Origin: Alphaproteobacteria bacterium
GTDB taxonomy: Bacteria > Pseudomonadota > Alphaproteobacteria > Sphingomonadales > Kordiimonadaceae
Length of the DNA: 64,000 bases
Direction of reading: 5' to 3'
NCBI GenBank assembly: GCA_021774695.1
Contig: JAJFIU010000162.1
Span: 1-64,000 of the forward strand
A program made the translations under genes and the position numbers. This document shows positions 290 through 9,818 of this stretch, piece by piece (position 1 is the stretch's first letter; each line of letters opens with the position of its first letter). The notes under the pieces are model-generated. The model ran no database searches. It saw only the letters and a list, made by a program, of their open reading frames with translations, and was not told where the DNA came from.

Positions 290-898
290 CTACTTAACTT
301 TGTCTAACACCGACGCAAGGCTTTTAGCAATATCCTCGGGTTTGTCACGTGACGAAAACAGGCGCACATAATTTCCATCCGGGTCCATGACAAATGTAAG
401 CGCTGAATGGTCCATTAAATAATCAGATGTGCCTGGTTGTTCGCGCTTGGCAAAATAAACCTTATAGCTCCCCGCCACTGCCCGAATTTCATCAACGGTG
501 CCAGTTAAACCGAGCAACCGCGGATGAAAATCAGATAAAAACCCCGCCATTTCGGCTACAGTGTCTCGCTCGGGGTCAACAGTAATGAAAAGTGGCTGGA
601 CAGGTGTGGTGTCATAGCCAGCTTCCTCCAACGAATAGAGCGCGACAGACAGTTTTTGCAGGTCAAGCGGGCAAACATCCGGGCAATAGCTATAGCCAAA
701 ATACACCAACATGTAGCGGCCTAGAAAATCGGTGTTAGACACTTTTTCGCCTGTATGGGCTGTCAAAGTGAACGGGCCGCCCGGCCCGCCAGCACTGCCG
801 GTCAGTGGCTCTTCCTGGTTGCTAATATAGAGGCGCCCAAGCAACAGCAGCGCCGCAACAAATACCAGTAGCCATAGCCCCAATCGCACCATTTTCAT
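290..898 (-). CDS. SCO1/SenC/PrrC-family copper chaperone
   Basis: A 202-aa protein with one N-terminal membrane anchor (about residues 6-22) and a thioredoxin-like domain on the periplasmic side. The copper-binding residues of SCO proteins are all present: CPDVC (Cys72, Cys76) and a distal His near 164 in MDHSAL. The family delivers copper to the CuA or CuB centre of haem-copper oxidases and has been linked to thiol redox signalling. The frame stays open upstream, but the extension would run into the divergent ankyrin gene's promoter, so I place the start at MKMVRLG. In Rhodobacter, senC/prrC sits in the regB-regA locus; the same genes lie within 2 kb here. Confidence 0.88.
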   Translation of the reverse strand: MKMVRLGLWLLVFVAALLLLGRLYISNQEEPLTGSAGGPGGPFTLTAHTGEKVSNTDFLGRYMLVYFGYSYCPDVCPLDLQKLSVALYSLEEAGYDTTPVQPLFITVDPERDTVAEMAGFLSDFHPRLLGLTGTVDEIRAVAGSYKVYFAKREQPGTSDYLMDHSALTFVMDPDGNYVRLFSSRDKPEDIAKSLASVLDKVK

Positions 899-1074
899 CA
901 CAGCTCTCCGAATTGTTACCCCGCCAATGTATTTTACCGGGGTTTCTCCTTGTGATCTCGGCTCCCTTATAGAAATATAGGCTGGTGTTGTCACGGCCCC
1001 TGCGGCAAATAGTGTCAACGAATGGAATTTTTGATTTGGCGCTATGGTGCCTGTTACCAATAAGTGGAGTTTTG

Positions 1075-1641
1075 ATGTTGTTTTCAGTTCGTCGTATAGG
1101 GTTGTTAGCTATTTTGGTTTTGGCGTTGGGCGCGGTTACACCTGCATGGGCACAGAGCCCGCAATATGATTTATTGAAGGCGGTGGACAAAGCGGACCTT
1201 GTTAAAATCAATGACCTGCTGCGCTCAGGCATTTCGCCTGATACCCGTCGGCGCAGTGACCGCACCCCGGTAATCGTAATTGCAGCGCAATCGGCCAATG
1301 CTGCTGTGGTGAAACTGTTGCTCGACAATGATGCCAACCCCAACACCTCTGATAATAGAGGACAAACAGCGTTGATGGTCAGGGCTGTTGTCGGCGACAC
1401 CAACATGATCAAATTGCTTCTGTCCTATGGGGCTGACCCCAACCGAGCTGACACAGGCCAGGAAACTGCACTGATGAAGGCGGTTAGGGGCCGAAAATTT
1501 AAAGCGGCTCAAGCCCTTATTGACGCTGGTGCAGACCCAAATGTGCAGGACCTGACCGGTAAAACAGCGTTAGAGTATGCGAAATTAAGTCGCTCCCGGC
1601 GCTTTGTACGCCTGTTGCAGGATGCCGGCGCTACTTACTAG
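1075..1641 (+). CDS. secreted ankyrin-repeat protein
   Basis: A 188-aa protein with a signal peptide (hydrophobic residues about 8-22, predicted cleavage after AWA) followed by about four ankyrin repeats. Repeat signatures such as TALMVRAVVGDTNMIKLLL, GADPN and TALEYAK are clear. It probably acts as a periplasmic protein-binding scaffold; no partner can be named. I chose ATG 1075 because it gives a clean signal peptide, while the upstream in-frame Met would add non-conserved sequence over the intergenic region. It is divergent from the SCO gene, and the 176 bp between them should hold both promoters. Confidence 0.82.
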   Translation: MLFSVRRIGLLAILVLALGAVTPAWAQSPQYDLLKAVDKADLVKINDLLRSGISPDTRRRSDRTPVIVIAAQSANAAVVKLLLDNDANPNTSDNRGQTALMVRAVVGDTNMIKLLLSYGADPNRADTGQETALMKAVRGRKFKAAQALIDAGADPNVQDLTGKTALEYAKLSRSRRFVRLLQDAGATY

Positions 1642-1705
1642 TGTAGCGGACTGAATGTTACATCTTTTGTATTTGAGTAGCCTTGAAAATTGACCCTTTC
1701 CAGGA

Positions 1706-2623
1706 GTGCTCACTATACAGAGCTTGATCCAGATATACCTTGATAACGCCGCGCCGTGGATCCTTGTTTGGCTGGGAGCCGTGGCGCTGGATATGCTATT
1801 TGGTGGGCCAAAAGCGCTGGGGCTTGTTCCGTCGCTGGACAGTGTTACCACACAGTCAGTCCAATTTCTGCAAACAAGATTAGAACGCCAAACAAGGAGC
1901 AAACGAGCCCACTATTGGCGCGGCATCACCGCGGCGATAGTACTTGGGATAACCTTCGGTGCTGCAGGATACGGCCTTGACCAGTTGGTTTTTCTTCATC
2001 CGGCACTGACCGCCGTGGCTGTTTTCTTTATCGCGAAATTTCTTTCCCTGAAAATAGCCTGGCAACAAAATCAGAAGGAGATTATTAGCCCGGGCGCTGA
2101 CAAATATCGCCGGCTTGCCCGCCAGCCGATTGAGCTTATTGTCAACTATTACATCCCTGCCGCTCTCTTATTCGTCGTCGGCGGTTTTAGTTTGTTATTG
2201 CCTTTTTCCTGCCTGCACGTCGCGAGCCTTTCCGCTCTGGAAAACCATGAAAAGTCTTTTTTCCTCAAACCATTTGCCCGTCTGCGGTCTGTCGCCGCTT
2301 TTCCAGGGGAGATTATTGGCTCGGCCGTAATGGCCATTGCGCTTCTATTTTGGCCTGCAGCAAACTGGAAACAGGGGTGGCTGTCAGTTTTCCATTTTGG
2401 AAAATCGATCAGGCTTTGGCCGCTAACTATCGCGGCGCATGCCTTCAATTGGTCAATAGAGCGACTTGATGGTACCCCTGAAAAAAAGTGGGTTGGCCCC
2501 ACCCACGGGTTAGCGCATTTAAAACCCGCCGACGTTAAAAATGCGCTTATTGTCGCGCTTATTGCCTTTGCTATCGCAAACGCCGTCTTGGCGCTATTGT
2601 GGTTGGCGGCATTCGTTGGATGA
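1706..2623 (+). CDS. CobD/CbiB-like integral membrane protein
   Basis: About 305 aa with several hydrophobic segments. The N-terminal LDMLFGGP and the C-terminal stretch WPLTIAAHAFNWSIERLDG followed by WVGPTHG resemble CobD/CbiB, the adenosylcobinamide-phosphate synthase of cobalamin synthesis. The resemblance is distant, and no other cobalamin gene is present, so activity is uncertain. The start is unclear: GTG 1706 overlaps an AGGAG, and TTG 1724 is an alternative better spaced from it. It lies directly upstream of regB with only 4 bp between stop and start, so it is very likely cotranscribed with regB and regA. Confidence 0.55.
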   Translation: MLTIQSLIQIYLDNAAPWILVWLGAVALDMLFGGPKALGLVPSLDSVTTQSVQFLQTRLERQTRSKRAHYWRGITAAIVLGITFGAAGYGLDQLVFLHPALTAVAVFFIAKFLSLKIAWQQNQKEIISPGADKYRRLARQPIELIVNYYIPAALLFVVGGFSLLLPFSCLHVASLSALENHEKSFFLKPFARLRSVAAFPGEIIGSAVMAIALLFWPAANWKQGWLSVFHFGKSIRLWPLTIAAHAFNWSIERLDGTPEKKWVGPTHGLAHLKPADVKNALIVALIAFAIANAVLALLWLAAFVG

Positions 2624-2627
2624 CAAA

Positions 2628-3992
2628 ATGAAACCCGAGACACGGCACATAAAAAATACCGCAGGAAATCACTCGACCAAACCAGTGTTCGGTGAAATTT
2701 ACCCAGATTTCGGCAGCGAAGGCGGTGTGCGCCTGGGTACATTGGTGGCTATTCGCTGGATCGGTGTAAGCGGCCAATTGTTTGCGTTGGCGCTGGTGGC
2801 CGCCGTTTTCCGTTTTGATGTTAAAGCCGAGATTACAATACCGCTTGTGCTGGTGTCCGCCGTTTTGAATTTATGGTTTTCGCTTCGGTCAGACAAAAAC
2901 AAACGTCTGCCAGACAGCCAGGCCAGAGCGCATCTGGCATTCGACCTTATCCATGTCGCTGCGCTGTTGTTTGTAACTGGCGGGCTTTCAAACCCTTTCT
3001 GTATGCTGATGCTGGTGCCAACAACTGTGTCTGCCACCATGCTGACACGGCAAAGTACCTACGGCCTGATTGCGCTATCGCTGGGACTGGCAACAGCGCT
3101 AGCCTTCACGCCGTTTCCCTTACCGTGGGACGGCGCGCCGCCGGTCGTTGAACCGTTGTTTCTAACTGCAATCTGGATCAGCTTGTGTTTCACGCTGGTG
3201 TTTCTTGCCGTCTATATGGCCCGGGTTGGCCGGGAAAGCCGCATGCGGGCGCGGGCGCTTGTAGCAACCCAGTTTGCGCTCGAGCAAGAGCAAAAACTGG
3301 CCGCGCTAGGTGCGCTTGCCGCCGCCGCAGCACACGAGCTGGGTACACCGATGGGCACAATTATGCTGGCCGCAAAAGACCTTTTGACATCTTGGCAGGG
3401 CGATGATGAAACGAAGGCCGACCTGAAATTGATTCTTGCAGAAATTACCCGGTGCCGAAACATACTGGCCGAACTGCGGGAACATAAAAAAGCCGGCGTG
3501 GGCGAGCATTTCACCATGATGCCGGTTGCCGCCATGTTACGGGAAGCTGCGGCACCCCACGAGCAACGCGGCATTATCCTTGAGTTTGCCGTTGGTGCAT
3601 CCGCCAACTTTGAAATTGCCCGCACACCGGAAATTATCCACTCGGTAAGAAGTATCGTGGAGAACGCCGTCGGTTTCGCCCGCGCTCAAGTGATCATTGC
3701 GGCGGACATGAGCGACGATATCCTAATGGTTACCATCGACGATGACGGGCCAGGCTTTGACCCGCAGATAATACGCAATTTAGGCGAACCTTACGTCACG
3801 ACCCGCAGGCCGCGCCCTGGTCGCGACGGCGGGCTGGGGCTTGGATTGTTTATCGCAAAATCGCTGCTTGAGCGCATGGGGGCATCCCTATCGTTCGGGG
3901 CAACCCCTAGCGGCGGTGCCCGTACAAGTATATTGTTCCCTCAAACACAGTCTCTCAAATCGACCCCATTCACATCCACGTCCACACTCTAA
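2628..3992 (+). CDS. regB: redox-sensing histidine kinase RegB/PrrB
   Basis: A 454-aa kinase with about six transmembrane segments (residues 35-200) followed by a cytoplasmic kinase core. Family hallmarks are visible: the quinone-site heptapeptide GGLSNPF (118-124), the H-box AAAHELGTPMGTI with His236, and the redox-box cysteine Cys276 in TRCRNIL. ATP-binding motifs are DDDGPGFD and GGLGLGLFIAK. RegB senses the ubiquinone pool and cysteine oxidation and controls RegA phosphorylation. The start MKPETRH lies 4 bp after the upstream stop; longer in-frame starts lie inside the CobD-like gene. Confidence 0.93.
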   Translation: MKPETRHIKNTAGNHSTKPVFGEIYPDFGSEGGVRLGTLVAIRWIGVSGQLFALALVAAVFRFDVKAEITIPLVLVSAVLNLWFSLRSDKNKRLPDSQARAHLAFDLIHVAALLFVTGGLSNPFCMLMLVPTTVSATMLTRQSTYGLIALSLGLATALAFTPFPLPWDGAPPVVEPLFLTAIWISLCFTLVFLAVYMARVGRESRMRARALVATQFALEQEQKLAALGALAAAAAHELGTPMGTIMLAAKDLLTSWQGDDETKADLKLILAEITRCRNILAELREHKKAGVGEHFTMMPVAAMLREAAAPHEQRGIILEFAVGASANFEIARTPEIIHSVRSIVENAVGFARAQVIIAADMSDDILMVTIDDDGPGFDPQIIRNLGEPYVTTRRPRPGRDGGLGLGLFIAKSLLERMGASLSFGATPSGGARTSILFPQTQSLKSTPFTSTSTL

Positions 3993-4011
3993 CCCGTTAT
4001 ATGAGGCCTAT

Positions 4012-4560
4012 ATGTCTGAAAAAAACCAAATCGACCCGGAAGATGTTTTGTTGATAGTGGAAGACGATCGCGCCTTTCGTCAGCGGCTTTCTCTGAGCAT
4101 GGAGCGCCAGGGATTTACCGTTGTCGCTGCGGAAAGTGTTGAAGAGGCAGGGTTGATGGCGGCAGACCACAAGCCACGCTATGCTATCTTAGACATGAAG
4201 CTAAATGACGGTAACGGCCTCGATCTTGTGCCGACGCTGCGCCATCTCCGCGCTGATGTACGCATTATAATCCTGACGGGATACGGCAACCTGGCAAGCG
4301 CTGTTGCAGCGGTGAAAGCAGGGGCCGTGGACTATTTGGCAAAACCCGCTGACCCCGATGAAATCGTTAAAGCGCTGTTGACCGGCGACGGTGAGAAGCC
4401 GGAACCGCCGGAAAATCCCATGTCTGCCGACCGGGTAAAATGGGAGCATATTCAGCGCGTTTACGAACTGTGCGACCGCAATGTTTCTGAAACAGCGCGG
4501 CGCTTGAACATGCATCGGCGAACCCTACAAAGAATTCTCGCCAAAAGGTCGCCGCTTTAG
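4012..4560 (+). CDS. regA: response regulator RegA/PrrA
   Basis: A 182-aa response regulator. The receiver domain has acidic residues VEDD (17-19) and the phospho-acceptor Asp61 (ILDMKLNDGNG), with LTGYG and the conserved Lys in YLAKPAD. A linker containing GEKPEPPENP leads to a Fis-type helix-turn-helix (NVSETARRLNMHRRTLQRILAKR) that is nearly invariant in the RegA family. It globally regulates energy-generating and redox processes together with RegB, whose gene ends 19 bp upstream. The start ATG at 4012 follows a TGAGG sequence. Confidence 0.94.
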   Translation: MSEKNQIDPEDVLLIVEDDRAFRQRLSLSMERQGFTVVAAESVEEAGLMAADHKPRYAILDMKLNDGNGLDLVPTLRHLRADVRIIILTGYGNLASAVAAVKAGAVDYLAKPADPDEIVKALLTGDGEKPEPPENPMSADRVKWEHIQRVYELCDRNVSETARRLNMHRRTLQRILAKRSPL

Positions 4561-4611: not shown

Positions 4612-5031
4612 CTAACTCTTCAATTGCTCCGTCAGATGCTGAGTATAGGCGGCAAAGTCCGCATAATCCTGTTCCAGATCGAACCATTCAATAAACCAAT
4701 CGGTCGCCCCAACAACCGGGTCAAGCGCTCGTAAAAGCGCCGACTCCTTCAGCCGCTTATGAACATCACGCATGGGCGCTGTCAAATCGTTCAATGTCGC
4801 TTCAGCGGTCACCCCTATGCAGTCGGCATTGGGCAGAGCAAACAGCCGCGCGCCTTTATTTTGCACCAGCGGCCTAAGCGCGGACGCCAATTCTCGGCGG
4901 TAATAGGGCTCTTGCATATGACGCTCAAGGCTGGACAGCTTAATATGGAAGGCGCGACGGCCAATGGTGTGACGCCGCAACCGGTGCACATAATCAAGCA
5001 AATCTTCCATAATGTCTGGGGGTTTATACAT
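4612..5031 (-). CDS. uncharacterised small protein in operon with LapG-like protease
   Basis: A 139-aa soluble protein that I do not recognise with certainty. It has no signal peptide or membrane segment. Visible features are the N-terminal DLLDYVHRLRRHTIGRRAFHI, a central LFALPNADCIGVTAEA, and a C-terminal WFIEWFDLEQDYADF. From memory these resemble an uncharacterised domain in larger alphaproteobacterial proteins, but I cannot confirm this. It starts with a good ribosome-binding site (GAGG, 7 nt spacing) 14 bp after the LapG-like gene, so the two form an operon. A cytoplasmic accessory role in the same pathway is inference. Confidence 0.6.
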   Translation of the reverse strand: MYKPPDIMEDLLDYVHRLRRHTIGRRAFHIKLSSLERHMQEPYYRRELASALRPLVQNKGARLFALPNADCIGVTAEATLNDLTAPMRDVHKRLKESALLRALDPVVGATDWFIEWFDLEQDYADFAAYTQHLTEQLKS

Positions 5032-5045
5032 AAACCAACCTCAAT

Positions 5046-5807
5046 TCACCGACCAAACCGTTTAACCTGATGAAGCCACCAATTAGATTCGTTTATCGAA
5101 TAAACTGGCCTGTAATGCAAAATTTTATCATGGGTCAGTACAGTATCTACCTGATTATCGAGGATGTGAAAAGTGCCGTCAAGCTCAACGGCAAGGACGG
5201 CATGAGCGGCCCGCAAGTTTTCGTCCTGCAATACTACAAGGCGCATCTTCGCTGTATCTATGCCCATGCGTTTGAGAGTTATAAACTTGCTTATTGCGTA
5301 ATCTTCGCAGTCACCATCTTTCATAAAAAATTCGTCTGGTGTCGACCAATAATCAGGTACGCCCCAATTAACGGGATCTACAATGTAAGTGGACCGGTTG
5401 AAGTAAAGATTGACCGCACTCAATAATTCAACGGTGAGCACTGTGTCAGCGGCGTCAGCAGATGCGGGTCCTTTAATGCGTTGATCGTCGATAAATTTAT
5501 CCCAAGCTTCACGACTGCATTTCAGGCGCTCTCTGCCCCGGCACCTGTCATTGGCATTCGTATTGGTATTGGCGGGCGTTGCCGTATCAGTTGCAGCATC
5601 CGCTCGTTGTAAATTTTGCCTGCGCCAAACGCCGCTCCATTTATTGAATGATTTCATGTTGGTTGAGTGAATTTCACGGCTACCAAAAAGGCCGCTTGAT
5701 TGGGCATAGGCCGAAGGCGTCAACAAACCCATCGCTGCGATGGCTATGGCTATCCCTATTGCCACACAATATCTGCTGGCGCGTGGATATCTGCTGGCAC
5801 TTGACAA
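5046..5807 (-). CDS. LapG-like periplasmic transglutaminase-like cysteine protease
   Basis: A 253-aa secreted protein of the bacterial transglutaminase-like cysteine proteinase family (DUF920/LapG). A signal peptide ends near PSAYAQ (about residue 36). The Cys-His-Asp triad is visible as Cys167 in KDGDCEDYA, His202 in AAHAVLA and Asp217 in HILDNQ. In Pseudomonas, LapG cleaves the adhesin LapA and is held inactive by the c-di-GMP receptor LapD. Here the divergent neighbour is a membrane sensor with a degenerate HD-GYP domain. I accept the TTG start because AAAAGGGA precedes it; a GTG at codon 15 is the alternative. The first codons contain an 18-bp tandem duplication. Confidence 0.82.
   Translation of the reverse strand: MSSASRYPRASRYCVAIGIAIAIAAMGLLTPSAYAQSSGLFGSREIHSTNMKSFNKWSGVWRRQNLQRADAATDTATPANTNTNANDRCRGRERLKCSREAWDKFIDDQRIKGPASADAADTVLTVELLSAVNLYFNRSTYIVDPVNWGVPDYWSTPDEFFMKDGDCEDYAISKFITLKRMGIDTAKMRLVVLQDENLRAAHAVLAVELDGTFHILDNQVDTVLTHDKILHYRPVYSINESNWWLHQVKRFGR
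5769..5798. repeat. short tandem repeat in the LapG-like gene start
   Basis: The 12-mer ATATCTGCTGGC occurs twice with an 18-bp period. It encodes the repeated peptide ASRY-PR-ASRY at the extreme N-terminus, just ahead of the signal-peptide core. Confidence 0.7.
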
Positions 5808-5981
5808 ATTTTGTCCCTTTTTAGGTCAACCATCGGGCGGTGTTGTTACTTGCCAGCATCCGGAAAATAACAGAATGCCCGCTTGAGCGAGTATAGTGAC
5901 AAATTCTAATAGTCTGTTAATTTATTATCGGTATTTTGATGTTAGTAACTTCACTCAGGCTAGCCAAACAAGGAACTGCAC

Positions 5982-8042
5982 ATGTCACAGCAACGTGAGC
6001 CCGCGCGCGCATTTATAGCGCCTGTCCTTGGCCTGCTGGCAATATCGATAGTTGCGCTGCTGGTTATCTTCAGATTCGCTGCTTCGGAAGCGGAAAAAGG
6101 CCTGGAAAGCTGGCAAAGCCGGATGGACCTGGTGGCGGACAGCCGTGTTGCCGAAGTCTCGGAATGGCTAAACCGACATTTGGGCAATATCGAGCGATTG
6201 GCCGGTGACGCCTCTGTTCAGCTGTATGCCTCAACAATTGTACAAACTGAGGATCAAGGTGATAACGGCGCCGAGGCACAGCGCGGCTATATCTTTTCGC
6301 TATTGTCCGTTGAAGCCGAGGCTAGCGGATTCCACGAGCAGCGCCCCATCGATTCCGTTTCGGCTAACGTAAAACGACCCAGCCGGGCTGGCCTTGCCTT
6401 GTTGGACGGCACGGGTAGAATATTAGTGGCGTCAACCGGAATGCCTATGCTGCGTCCGGAAGAAATAGCGCCGACCGGTGCTCGGCCCTTCGTCAAATTG
6501 GGGCCATCACTTGATGACAAGACGCCGCTGGTGCTTGTGGGCGCGCCCATTGCCCTGAGTGCTGACGGCCAAACTGTTACGGCCTGGATTGTGGGCGCAC
6601 GGCCCCTGGACCGCGATTTTCTCGGCACACTTGATCAACCCGGTGATGACAGTACCACGGCTGAAACTTACCTGGTTACCAGCCCGGAAGCAGGCGCTGA
6701 TCTTGTCACACCAATAACACCGCTGCGCCGCGGTGGCCGGGCCGGCGATGTGCGCCTTGACCCCGCGGCAAGCTATGCAGCACGCCAACCGGGCGGATTT
6801 GAGCAGTTGCTCAATTATGACGGACGGTTGGTGCTGGTTACTGGCCGGGAGCTAAGCGCCCCTGTACCCTGGGTTCTGGTTCGTACCATTGAGGCAAGCG
6901 AGGCTTTTGCCAACATCAACCAGCGCCGCAATAGTTTGTTCATTACGCTGTCGCTGGCTGCCCTTTCAATGCTCGGTGCGCTGGTTCTTGTGTGGCGCCA
7001 CGGCGTTTCGCGCAAGCTGGCAAAAAGCTATCAGCAGCAATCAGCACTATCGTCAGAAAATCAGGCGTTGAGTATTTTTCTGCGCTCTGTCAGCGACAGC
7101 CAACCTGCAGCGATTGCAGCTTTGGACGCTGACATGACAGCCCGCTTCGTCAACAAACAAATGGGCGCTGTAGCCGGTATTGATGCGACGGAACTGGAAA
7201 ATCGGCGCCTTGATACGGTTTTTGACAATGAAACCGCGGGCTTGCTGCGAGAAAAGGTTGAAGACGCCGCGGCGGGCACAGCCCAAACCATCGCGTCGCT
7301 GCGTCCATCAGCAGAATCGGACCGACTATTTAAAACCGACATACTGCCCTTGGAGGGTGCGGGTGAAACCTCGGCCAATGTGTTGCTGGTTATGCAAGAC
7401 ATCACAGACCTGGTGGCAGCCAACCAGCGATCCGAAAATCTGTTTCGCCAACTGATCAGCACCTTGACACAGATTATCGATGCCCGGGATCCCTGGAGCA
7501 AACACCATTCCGCGCGCGTTGCGGACGTTGCCTCTGCGATGGCACGGGAAATGGACTGGGGACCGGAAGAACAAGAAGCAATGCGGACCGCCGGGCAGCT
7601 GGTTAACCTGGGTAAAATATTTGTGCCCATTGATATCTTGACCAAACAATCCCCGCTTTCCGAGGACGAGCTTGCCTTGGTGCGTGACAGCATGAGCAAA
7701 GGCGCGCAGCTGATTGCCGACGTGGGGCTCAAGGGCTCTGTTGCAGAAACACTGGACCAAATGCGCGAGCATTGGGACGGCAGCGGTGAGCCAGAAGGTC
7801 GGGCAGGAGACGCTATCGAACCGGGTGCGCGCTTGCTATCGGTGGCCAACGCTTTTGTTGGCATCGTCTCGGCGCGGGCCCACCGGAAAAGCCTTGGGTT
7901 CGATAAAGCCGTCGATATCCTGCAAGCCGATGCCGGAAAACGCTTCGAGCGGCGCGCGGTAGCCGCGCTGCAGAGCATTCTCGAAAACAAGGATGGCCGC
8001 CAACGCTGGGCTGACTATACCAAAGTCCCAAACATTGATTGA
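5982..8042 (+). CDS. membrane sensor with PAS and degenerate HD-GYP domain
   Basis: A 686-aa protein with transmembrane segments at about 13-31 and 318-338 enclosing a roughly 285-residue periplasmic sensor region. A cytoplasmic PAS-like domain follows (about 365-480), then an HD-GYP-like domain (about 487-665). The first His pair (KHHSARV, 508-509) is kept. The HDIGK motif reads VNLGK (541-545) and the HHExxDGSGYP motif reads MREHWDGSGEP (594-604), so most metal ligands of c-di-GMP phosphodiesterases are missing. It is therefore probably a binding or signalling domain rather than an enzyme. The ATG follows AAGGA. It is divergent from the LapG-like protease gene. Confidence 0.8.
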   Translation: MSQQREPARAFIAPVLGLLAISIVALLVIFRFAASEAEKGLESWQSRMDLVADSRVAEVSEWLNRHLGNIERLAGDASVQLYASTIVQTEDQGDNGAEAQRGYIFSLLSVEAEASGFHEQRPIDSVSANVKRPSRAGLALLDGTGRILVASTGMPMLRPEEIAPTGARPFVKLGPSLDDKTPLVLVGAPIALSADGQTVTAWIVGARPLDRDFLGTLDQPGDDSTTAETYLVTSPEAGADLVTPITPLRRGGRAGDVRLDPAASYAARQPGGFEQLLNYDGRLVLVTGRELSAPVPWVLVRTIEASEAFANINQRRNSLFITLSLAALSMLGALVLVWRHGVSRKLAKSYQQQSALSSENQALSIFLRSVSDSQPAAIAALDADMTARFVNKQMGAVAGIDATELENRRLDTVFDNETAGLLREKVEDAAAGTAQTIASLRPSAESDRLFKTDILPLEGAGETSANVLLVMQDITDLVAANQRSENLFRQLISTLTQIIDARDPWSKHHSARVADVASAMAREMDWGPEEQEAMRTAGQLVNLGKIFVPIDILTKQSPLSEDELALVRDSMSKGAQLIADVGLKGSVAETLDQMREHWDGSGEPEGRAGDAIEPGARLLSVANAFVGIVSARAHRKSLGFDKAVDILQADAGKRFERRAVAALQSILENKDGRQRWADYTKVPNID

Positions 8043-8128: not shown

Positions 8129-8701
8129 TCAATTGCTAGCCGCAGATTGTGCGATTACGGACGCACCGCCAACATCAGGTATGCCAGCGCCAAGATCAAT
8201 CCAGTCCATTGGTCCCTGCCAGTCGGCAACCTTGGGTTCACCGAGAAACGGTGTTGCAAGCGAGACCCCTTTGTCGGGCGCGGGCACTGACAAGGCGATG
8301 GCAAACCCTGAAGAACCGTCCGCATCGAAAACCGGCAAAAGCGTAACTTCAAGTCGCAGCATATAGCCGCGTTCATACTCGCTTTCCATCTGGATACAAA
8401 TGCCCGCAGGGCACTCGCACACTTGATGAAGAATCGCGAGCATAAACGGCCACTGATGCTCTTGAATAAATTGCATATAATCCTGGCCGGCAATTTCACC
8501 GGAAAACCGGCCGATCACATTAGAGCCAGCCATGATGACATTCACACCTGTATCGGTGACCTTGCCAACCGTGAAATCTGGCAACAAATCAGGGATATGA
8601 TGGGCTTTAAAATCGGTTCGGAGTGGTACGCCCTTGCTGGACTCGGCGGCCAATTCGCGCCAAATTTTTTCCAGCCTTAAACTTTTTTCAGTCCGCATCA
8701 T
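8129..8701 (-). CDS. PAS-domain protein (PAS_5-like)
   Basis: A 190-aa cytoplasmic protein resembling the alphaproteobacterial PAS_5 family: an N-terminal helical segment (SLRLEKIWRELAAES), then a PAS fold with segments such as HIPDLLPDFTVGKV, RFSGEIAGQDYMQFI and LRLEVTLLPVFD. It probably senses a ligand or takes part in a signalling complex; no output domain is present. I prefer the ATG pair at 8701/8698, which follows GGGGAAAAGG, over an upstream TTG. It is on the same strand as mmcB and the Hpt gene but separated by 165 bp. Confidence 0.75.
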   Translation of the reverse strand: MMRTEKSLRLEKIWRELAAESSKGVPLRTDFKAHHIPDLLPDFTVGKVTDTGVNVIMAGSNVIGRFSGEIAGQDYMQFIQEHQWPFMLAILHQVCECPAGICIQMESEYERGYMLRLEVTLLPVFDADGSSGFAIALSVPAPDKGVSLATPFLGEPKVADWQGPMDWIDLGAGIPDVGGASVIAQSAASN

Positions 8702-8866
8702 CTGCCTTTTCCCCAAAAGTGCCTATGCAATAGCAGTCACTCACTGTGCTTGTATTGCGATAAAAATTCAAGATAAAGACCAGCTCTAAACAAAAAGGAA
8801 AAACAAACAGCGTCTGTCATTTGGGGTATTTTGGCTGCATGAACCCCACCGCACCAAGCGATCAGT

Positions 8867-9301
8867 TTATTCAGCCACTAACGGTCCGGCAAGACGCAAT
8901 GCACCAACCCGGGCCATCTTCAAATGAACGGTTTTGCGACGTGCCGGGTGCAATTTTCGCGCAAACGCACCGCGAATCACATCACCGCCGTATGCGTCCG
9001 CAATAATAATACCTGTTGTTTCCGGAAGAGATGCCTGTTCCGACAAAACATCGATTGGGAAATTCGCATCGACTGCAAAATAAAATTCATCGCTGAACGG
9101 TAAATATTCTTGCCACTTATTGTCGGCCCTGAAATCTGCCAGGCAGGATTTTACCTCGACAATGATTACACTGCCCGATTTTGTGACGCCTACAAGGTCA
9201 GCGCGCCGACCATTAGACAGCGATAATTCGCATAAGGCTGAATACCCCATCGAATGCAGGAGCCGCATAGTGCCCTTGGTAATTAAAGCGGTGCTGGTCA
9301 C
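8867..9301 (-). CDS. mmcB: MmcB-family DNA repair protein
   Basis: A 144-aa protein matching the MmcB family (PF06319), which has a restriction-endonuclease-like core: ADLVGV, then IIVEVKSCLADFRADNKW. The family was identified in Caulobacter as LexA-controlled and mitomycin-protective. It begins with GTG. About 70 bp upstream on the coding strand is GTTC-CTCATTT-GTTC, an exact match to the alphaproteobacterial LexA operator, which supports both the identification and SOS control. It lies downstream of the Hpt gene on the same strand. Confidence 0.88.
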   Translation of the reverse strand: MTSTALITKGTMRLLHSMGYSALCELSLSNGRRADLVGVTKSGSVIIVEVKSCLADFRADNKWQEYLPFSDEFYFAVDANFPIDVLSEQASLPETTGIIIADAYGGDVIRGAFARKLHPARRKTVHLKMARVGALRLAGPLVAE

Positions 9302-9371
9302 AGTTTTTCACAGCCAAAATTTTAAAACGACAGGAAATCTGAACCAAAAAATTATTGTCGGCAAGAAAAAA

Positions 9372-9386
9372 GAACAAATGAGGAAC
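9372..9386 (-). promoter_or_regulatory. LexA operator (GTTC-N7-GTTC) upstream of mmcB
   Basis: On the minus strand the sequence reads GTTC CTCATTT GTTC, the exact direct-repeat consensus of alphaproteobacterial SOS boxes. It sits in the 109-bp gap between the Hpt gene and mmcB. Confidence 0.75.
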
Positions 9387-9410
9387 AATTATCGTCCACA
9401 AAGGCAAAAA

Positions 9411-9818
9411 TTACGGTTCTTCGCTGATAATTGCCATCAGTCTATTTTGAAGTGCAACGCCCTTCTCACCGCCGTCACCCTGAATTTTGTGGGCTAACAC
9501 AACGTCAAACACTTTCACATGCGCGTCAATAACCCTGGCTGACAGGTTTTTGTCATCGGAAAGATCTTTGATATAGGAACAGAGCGAGCCACCAGCGAAC
9601 GTCATCAGGGGGAAATCAAAACTGCCGCCCATACCCTTAATATTGTGGGTCAGGTCGTAAATACGCGCTGCTTTCTCGTCCGATTTCACTTCGGATCCAT
9701 CCAACTCTGTCACAATGGTTTTCAGCTCGTTAACAGCGTCTGTTGTCCAGGTGACAAATTGCTCTACAAGTTCGGCGTCGTCAGCATAAGAAAAATCACC
9801 TGATTCCTCCTCGGGCAT
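9411..9818 (-). CDS. Hpt-domain phosphotransfer protein
   Basis: A 135-aa single-domain histidine phosphotransfer protein. The signature LTHNIKGMGGSFDFPLMT contains the putative phosphorylated His58, and the surrounding sequence is helical. The domain relays phosphate between hybrid kinases and response regulators; the partner kinase is not in this window. The N-terminus is acidic (MPEEESGDFSYADDAE). The ATG is preceded by GAGGACC. The next gene on the strand is mmcB, but that has its own LexA box. Confidence 0.85.
   Translation of the reverse strand: MPEEESGDFSYADDAELVEQFVTWTTDAVNELKTIVTELDGSEVKSDEKAARIYDLTHNIKGMGGSFDFPLMTFAGGSLCSYIKDLSDDKNLSARVIDAHVKVFDVVLAHKIQGDGGEKGVALQNRLMAIISEEP

Follow-up and report, generated by a model that had tools for sequence, protein, structure and literature searches.

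Degenerate HD-GYP receptors paired with LapG-type proteases in Kordiimonas and other Alphaproteobacteria

Positions 4612–8042 of a 64,000-nucleotide stretch of contig JAJFIU010000162.1 (the window; assembly GCA_021774695.1, a draft 3.8-Mb genome in 172 contigs, genus Kordiimonas sensu GTDB) encode a LapG-type periplasmic cysteine protease and, divergently, a 686-amino-acid membrane receptor whose HD-GYP domain lacks most metal ligands. We propose, with a probability of a little over three in four, that the two form an inside-out switch, most likely working like DvhD and DvhG of Desulfovibrio. Proteases of the LapG type detach bacterial cells from surfaces. The standard example of an inside-out switch governing attachment is LapD-LapG, and DvhD-DvhG is, to our knowledge, the first case with a receptor other than LapD.

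The metal-less HD-GYP domain of DvhD from Desulfovibrio vulgaris binds cyclic diguanylate (c-di-GMP) without hydrolyzing it, and the same study supports a model in which DvhD controls the LapG-type protease DvhG (PMC13090378). A reconstitution of DvhD/DvhG in P. fluorescens is attributed there to earlier work (Karbelkar et al. 2024, as cited in PMC13090378). A preliminary description of the window had taken an inside-out scheme with an HD-GYP receptor to be undescribed; because PMC13090378 reports DvhD/DvhG, the scheme is already described in Desulfovibrionales. A dead HD-GYP receptor for a LapG-type protease is thus known, and what appears to be new is the alphaproteobacterial clade beside DvhD-DvhG; the mechanism would extend to this clade by analogy.

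The receptor, the protease and their pairing

The three open reading frames of the preliminary description were all found at 4612–8042, with the protease and, downstream of it, a 139-amino-acid frame on the reverse strand and the receptor on the forward strand. Its reading of the receptor as a two-helix membrane sensor with a periplasmic domain and an HD-GYP domain was also borne out, with hydrophobic helices starting near residues 10 and 317 and matches to PAS_4 and HD_5. An AlphaFold2 (AF2) model of the receptor has a mean predicted local distance difference test score (pLDDT) of 82 and a predicted template modeling score (pTM) of 0.46; because the latter is low, the domain arrangement is uncertain, and weight lies on single-domain matches. 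The top PDB matches of the model in Foldseek are the DvhD PAS/HD-GYP and HD-GYP structures (9rc0, 9rbz), and DvhD PAS/HD-GYP is the best PDB match by sequence as well (phmmer 8e-35; profile 2e-57). The pair resembles DvhD-DvhG (PDB 9rc0, 9rbz, 9rc2) in joining a TM-dCache-TM-PAS-degenerate HD-GYP receptor (TM, transmembrane helix) to a LapG-type protease. With LapD-LapG of Pseudomonas fluorescens it shares a LapG-type cysteine protease beside a candidate membrane c-di-GMP receptor, and the same inside-out logic is proposed for both, but the window receptor has dCache, PAS and HD-GYP domains in place of LapD_MoxY, HAMP, GGDEF and EAL. A search of the genome for LapD with PF16448 gave 0 matches, as did the controls.

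The assignment of a LapG-type protease with an intact triad likewise stands. Beyond the PF06035 match and the signal-peptide-like N terminus, the sequence matches the LapG crystal structures 4u65 and 4fgo, and the triad C167/H202/D217 is invariant in 28 relatives. The acidic residues around the catalytic cysteine, D166 and E168 (the D-C-E calcium motif), are invariant in the same 28, and calcium dependence is predicted. The protease scores 78 bits against the NCBIfam LapG equivalog NF045674, below the cut-off of 320 bits; by this model it is LapG-like and no LapG orthologue. The source genome has a second PF06035 gene (L080, G000:C43), encoding a 194-amino-acid lipoprotein-like product. We set this aside as a competing LapG on account of its unrelated context, with carbonic anhydrase and SulP-like genes.

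The pair was followed through samples of 30 genomes of the family, 398 of the order and 385 of the class Alphaproteobacteria. Within the family the receptor occurs in 29 of 30 genomes and the protease in the same 29, and the loci show adjacent, divergent genes. At a threshold of E ≤ 1e-50, 61 of the 398 order-level genomes encode the receptor, with the protease adjoining by coordinates in 60; in the exception (G096) the two lie on separate contigs, the assembly being a draft. About 58 other genomes of the class sample have the receptor. Forty class-level loci were examined, from genomes whose receptor match is largely complete: the protease is adjacent in 32, divergently in 30 of them, and six of the eight genomes with no adjacent protease encode a related LapG elsewhere. 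As a control, LapG genes were found in the examined flanks of 0 of 15 catalytic HD-GYP genes. The receptor-protease arrangement first noted in the window is thus retained far beyond chance in the family, order and class samples.

Loss of the metal site and descent of the receptor

The loss of most metal ligands reported in the preliminary description is confirmed: in the window receptor, HD is replaced by VN (residues 541–542), HH by MR (594–595), the third histidine by S570 and the last aspartate by N623. The pattern recurs in a set of 90 sensors, which includes close relatives and is not made up of independent observations. Here the histidine of HD is hydrophobic in 90/90 and the aspartate is asparagine in 88/90, both histidines of HH are replaced almost throughout, and Asp623 is asparagine in 87/88. 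The degenerate domain is fixed across the clade and therefore does not represent decay in this species; the earlier label of a relic is misleading for an identical inactivation maintained in about 90 sensors. Window-type members share the HD-GYP fold with active phosphodiesterases (PmGH, 4mcw; PA4781, 4r8z) but have lost their metal ligands.

Residues of the receptor were mapped onto DvhD by hand, from a sequence alignment and the positions published for DvhD. The sensors keep R502 (89/90), L559 (90/90), P549 (83/90) and R632 (88/88), and R635 hardly varies; most have an aromatic residue at position 505, and position 634 is aromatic or histidine in 88/88. R502 stands where DvhD has the bridging residue K520. 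At the level of sequence, the metal ligands are gone clade-wide while most positions that contact c-di-GMP in DvhD remain, and by analogy with DvhD/DvhG the receptor would be expected to bind the nucleotide.

An HD-GYP tree contains three groups (catalytic, window-type and DvhD-type), each set off at 99–100% bootstrap, with the window-type receptors in their own group at 100% support. The dead motif differs as well, with HD changed to a hydrophobic residue and N (MN or VN) in window-type receptors and to SQ in DvhD, and on the tree and motifs together we rejected the window receptor as a DvhD orthologue. If the root lies among the catalytic enzymes, the two dead groups would be sister to each other. 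The protease tree divides likewise, into partners of window-type receptors (87%) and of DvhD-type receptors (100%), so that the window protease falls in a different clade from the partners of alphaproteobacterial DvhD-type receptors. The latter receptors (L304–L314) carry LSQ.GK or a similar motif and have a co-directional LapG gene in 8/10 loci; the genes of DvhD and DvhG are co-directional too, whereas those of the window diverge. In one genome (G563, locus L247) both types of pair lie around a single type 1 secretion system. Sequence comparison thus places the window receptor in a clade beside DvhD, broad in Alphaproteobacteria and with its own pattern of inactivation. We found no alphaproteobacterial description of this clade in the open-license literature, and the window-type branch is apparently undescribed so far; the class-level DvhDG distribution in PMC13090378 may well cover the DvhD-type alphaproteobacterial pairs. 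Window-type dead HD-GYP proteins of ∼445 amino acids, apparently without a periplasmic domain, occur at two further loci (L315, L316) with no LapG nearby.

A broader proposition is, on balance, modestly favored. Alphaproteobacteria would have their own undescribed clade of dead HD-GYP receptors controlling LapG-type proteases, split from the DvhD type along with the protease partner. These receptors would replace LapD in much of the class, at times beside a DvhD-type pair at one secretion system (as in G563); some lineages would add a soluble degenerate GGDEF-EAL protein as a second c-di-GMP element.

Proposed switch and competing explanations

In the proposed switch, the HD-GYP domain would have lost catalysis and been kept as a c-di-GMP binding module. 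Binding would reshape the helical stalk and the PAS dimer, and both membrane helices would relay the change to the dCache domain in the periplasm, where this domain would restrain the protease. A drop in c-di-GMP would then free the protease to cut an outer-membrane-retained surface protein near its N terminus, releasing it; the dCache domain may contribute an outside signal. The direction of control and the receptor-protease contact are carried over from DvhD/DvhG. The preliminary description had suggested that a dead HD-GYP domain takes the place of LapD; this fits the conserved pairing, the DvhD-like fold and the adhesin and secretion genes of distant loci, but c-di-GMP binding is a property that we infer.

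At three of those distant loci (L264, L274, L281) the pair adjoins genes for a large RTX adhesin and for ABC, HlyD and outer-membrane channel components, and at L296 it lies beside type 1 secretion genes; secretion components are also found at L246, L247, L255 and L278/L295. The Dvh/Lap operon layout is complete at L264, L274 and L281, partial at L296 and L247 and absent at the Kordiimonas locus. The adhesin at L295 has VAAG at residue 108, counted from a likely GTG start, and LapA cleavage removes 108 residues; a cleavage site near the LapA position is suggested, if no more. Within the secretion clusters at L264, L274, L281 and L296, genes for a CHASE2-cyclase and for a sulfatase-modifying-factor-like protein occur repeatedly.

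At the Kordiimonas loci, no adhesin or secretion genes adjoin the pair, a difference from DvhD-DvhG, as is the GGDEF-EAL gene that many relatives add. A search for RTX proteins returned many from Kordiimonas genomes. We name no substrate for Kordiimonas because the RTX N termini inspected show no clear LapA-type retention module. One RTX-repeat-rich open frame, of 6862 amino acids, lies around 322000–346000 of G025:C5 (L161, L162).

Several results weigh against the proposed switch. The LapA retention module NF033682, a narrow model, is found in 0/30 family genomes. Three DvhD contacts differ in the window receptor (Y621 to E, K582 to L and E668 to D), and the likeness of its periplasmic domain to that of DvhD is one of fold, at 12% identity. 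Two of the 40 class-level genomes, both of one genus, have the receptor and none of the related protease. Conversely, G047 (L173) and G043 (L177) keep the protease and a full-length GGDEF-EAL gene with no HD-GYP receptor next door.

The lack of an adhesin next to the pair in Kordiimonas would also suit a protease like HvyA, a BTLCP acting on the capsule or another envelope target, with the receptor tuning that target and not adhesin release. The passages of PMC4241560 that concern HvyA describe a periplasmic BTLCP that takes part in capsulation in the alphaproteobacterium Caulobacter, and BTLCPs are widespread in Alphaproteobacteria. According to the same passages, however, HvyA is encoded in a capsule export locus and controlled by timed synthesis, and they mention no membrane receptor, whereas the window protease is paired with one. 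No capsule genes are among the recognized neighbors in the window, which comprise redox-regulator, PAS, DNA-repair-like and Hpt genes, and distant homologous pairs accompany type 1 secretion systems and large RTX adhesins. We consider an HvyA-like role unlikely.

Signal flow could instead run from outside to inside, the dCache domain sensing a periplasmic ligand, the protease processing the receptor or being recruited by it, and the cytoplasmic part signaling onward. dCache domains usually bind small ligands, and the periplasmic part of the receptor matches the ligand-binding domains of chemoreceptors. On its cytoplasmic side, however, the receptor has only a PAS domain and a dead HD-GYP domain whose nucleotide contacts are conserved, which suits input rather than output, and the DvhD precedent runs inside-out. 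This makes outside-in signaling decidedly unlikely.

The remaining candidate for a c-di-GMP sensor is the third gene. The preliminary description called its product an unknown 139-amino-acid protein; it has no family match in Pfam, but longer homologues in relatives identify it as the truncated first half of a GGDEF-EAL protein. Most relatives have full-length homologues of 410–480 amino acids, two of which pass the EAL cut-off (PF00563), and the predicted structure of one (pLDDT 84) matches MorA, PA0861 and the LapD GGDEF-EAL in Foldseek. GGDEF-EAL catalytic motifs are unrecognizable in the alignment of homologues. The likeness to LapD, and the two loci with protease and GGDEF-EAL gene but no receptor beside them, would fit a degenerate GGDEF-EAL protein as the true c-di-GMP sensor of the operon, with the HD-GYP protein secondary. 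Yet only the first half is left in the window and its two closest relatives, and the gene is missing in three other relatives that still hold the receptor-protease pair; for this reason we regard it as dispensable to the pair. Most class-level loci also lack it, and hydropathy shows no membrane helix in the window copy, so that such a role is highly improbable. Residual phosphodiesterase activity through an unusual active site deserves almost no credence, because, although the modeled domain is well folded and still has the HDxGK lysine and the DGSG Asp-Gly, the His-Asp pair, both HH histidines, the third histidine and the final aspartate are substituted in nearly all members, and DvhD itself is inactive (PMC13090378).

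Should the proposed inside-out switch operate in this clade, HD-GYP receptors for LapG would be no peculiarity of Desulfovibrio, since the window-type receptor occurs in roughly 15% of the class-wide sample. The clade would show a dead enzyme retained as a receptor over long evolution, and would provide a system of attachment control that can be tested in many bacteria beyond those groups in which LapD has been studied.

Feature coordinates and flanking genes

Table 1. Features of the receptor-protease locus (window coordinates; aa, amino acids)
Feature	Position	Strand	Basis or remark
Truncated gene, GGDEF-like first half of a degenerate GGDEF-EAL protein	4612..5031	-	Homologues and lengths; relatives 410–480 aa
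LapG/DvhG-type periplasmic cysteine protease (BTLCP, peptidase C93), clade A	5046..5807	-	PF06035, E 2.9e-16
Protease hydrophobic N terminus, Sec signal-like, ...PSAYA|Q	5700..5807	-	Hydropathy and sequence; putative cleavage point
Protease-receptor intergenic region	5808..5981	.	174 bp between divergent genes; both promoters presumed, from coordinates
Membrane receptor, TM-dCache-TM-PAS-degenerate HD-GYP	5982..8042	+	Pfam, AF2 model, Foldseek
First transmembrane helix, aa ∼10–30	6009..6071	+	Hydropathy
Periplasmic dCache-like domain, aa ∼35–305	6084..6896	+	Foldseek: DvhD periplasmic 9rc2 (E 1.9e-5), chemoreceptor dCache, e.g., 5t65
Second transmembrane helix, aa ∼317–337	6930..6992	+	Hydropathy
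PAS domain (PAS_4), aa 372–478	7095..7415	+	PF08448, E 2.2e-11
Degenerate HD-GYP domain, aa 483–673	7428..8000	+	HD_5, E 3.7e-34

The locus is flanked by conserved neighbors at 290–4560 and 8129–9818, with SCO1-like, ankyrin and regB/regA genes on one side and PAS_5, mmcB-like and Hpt genes on the other.

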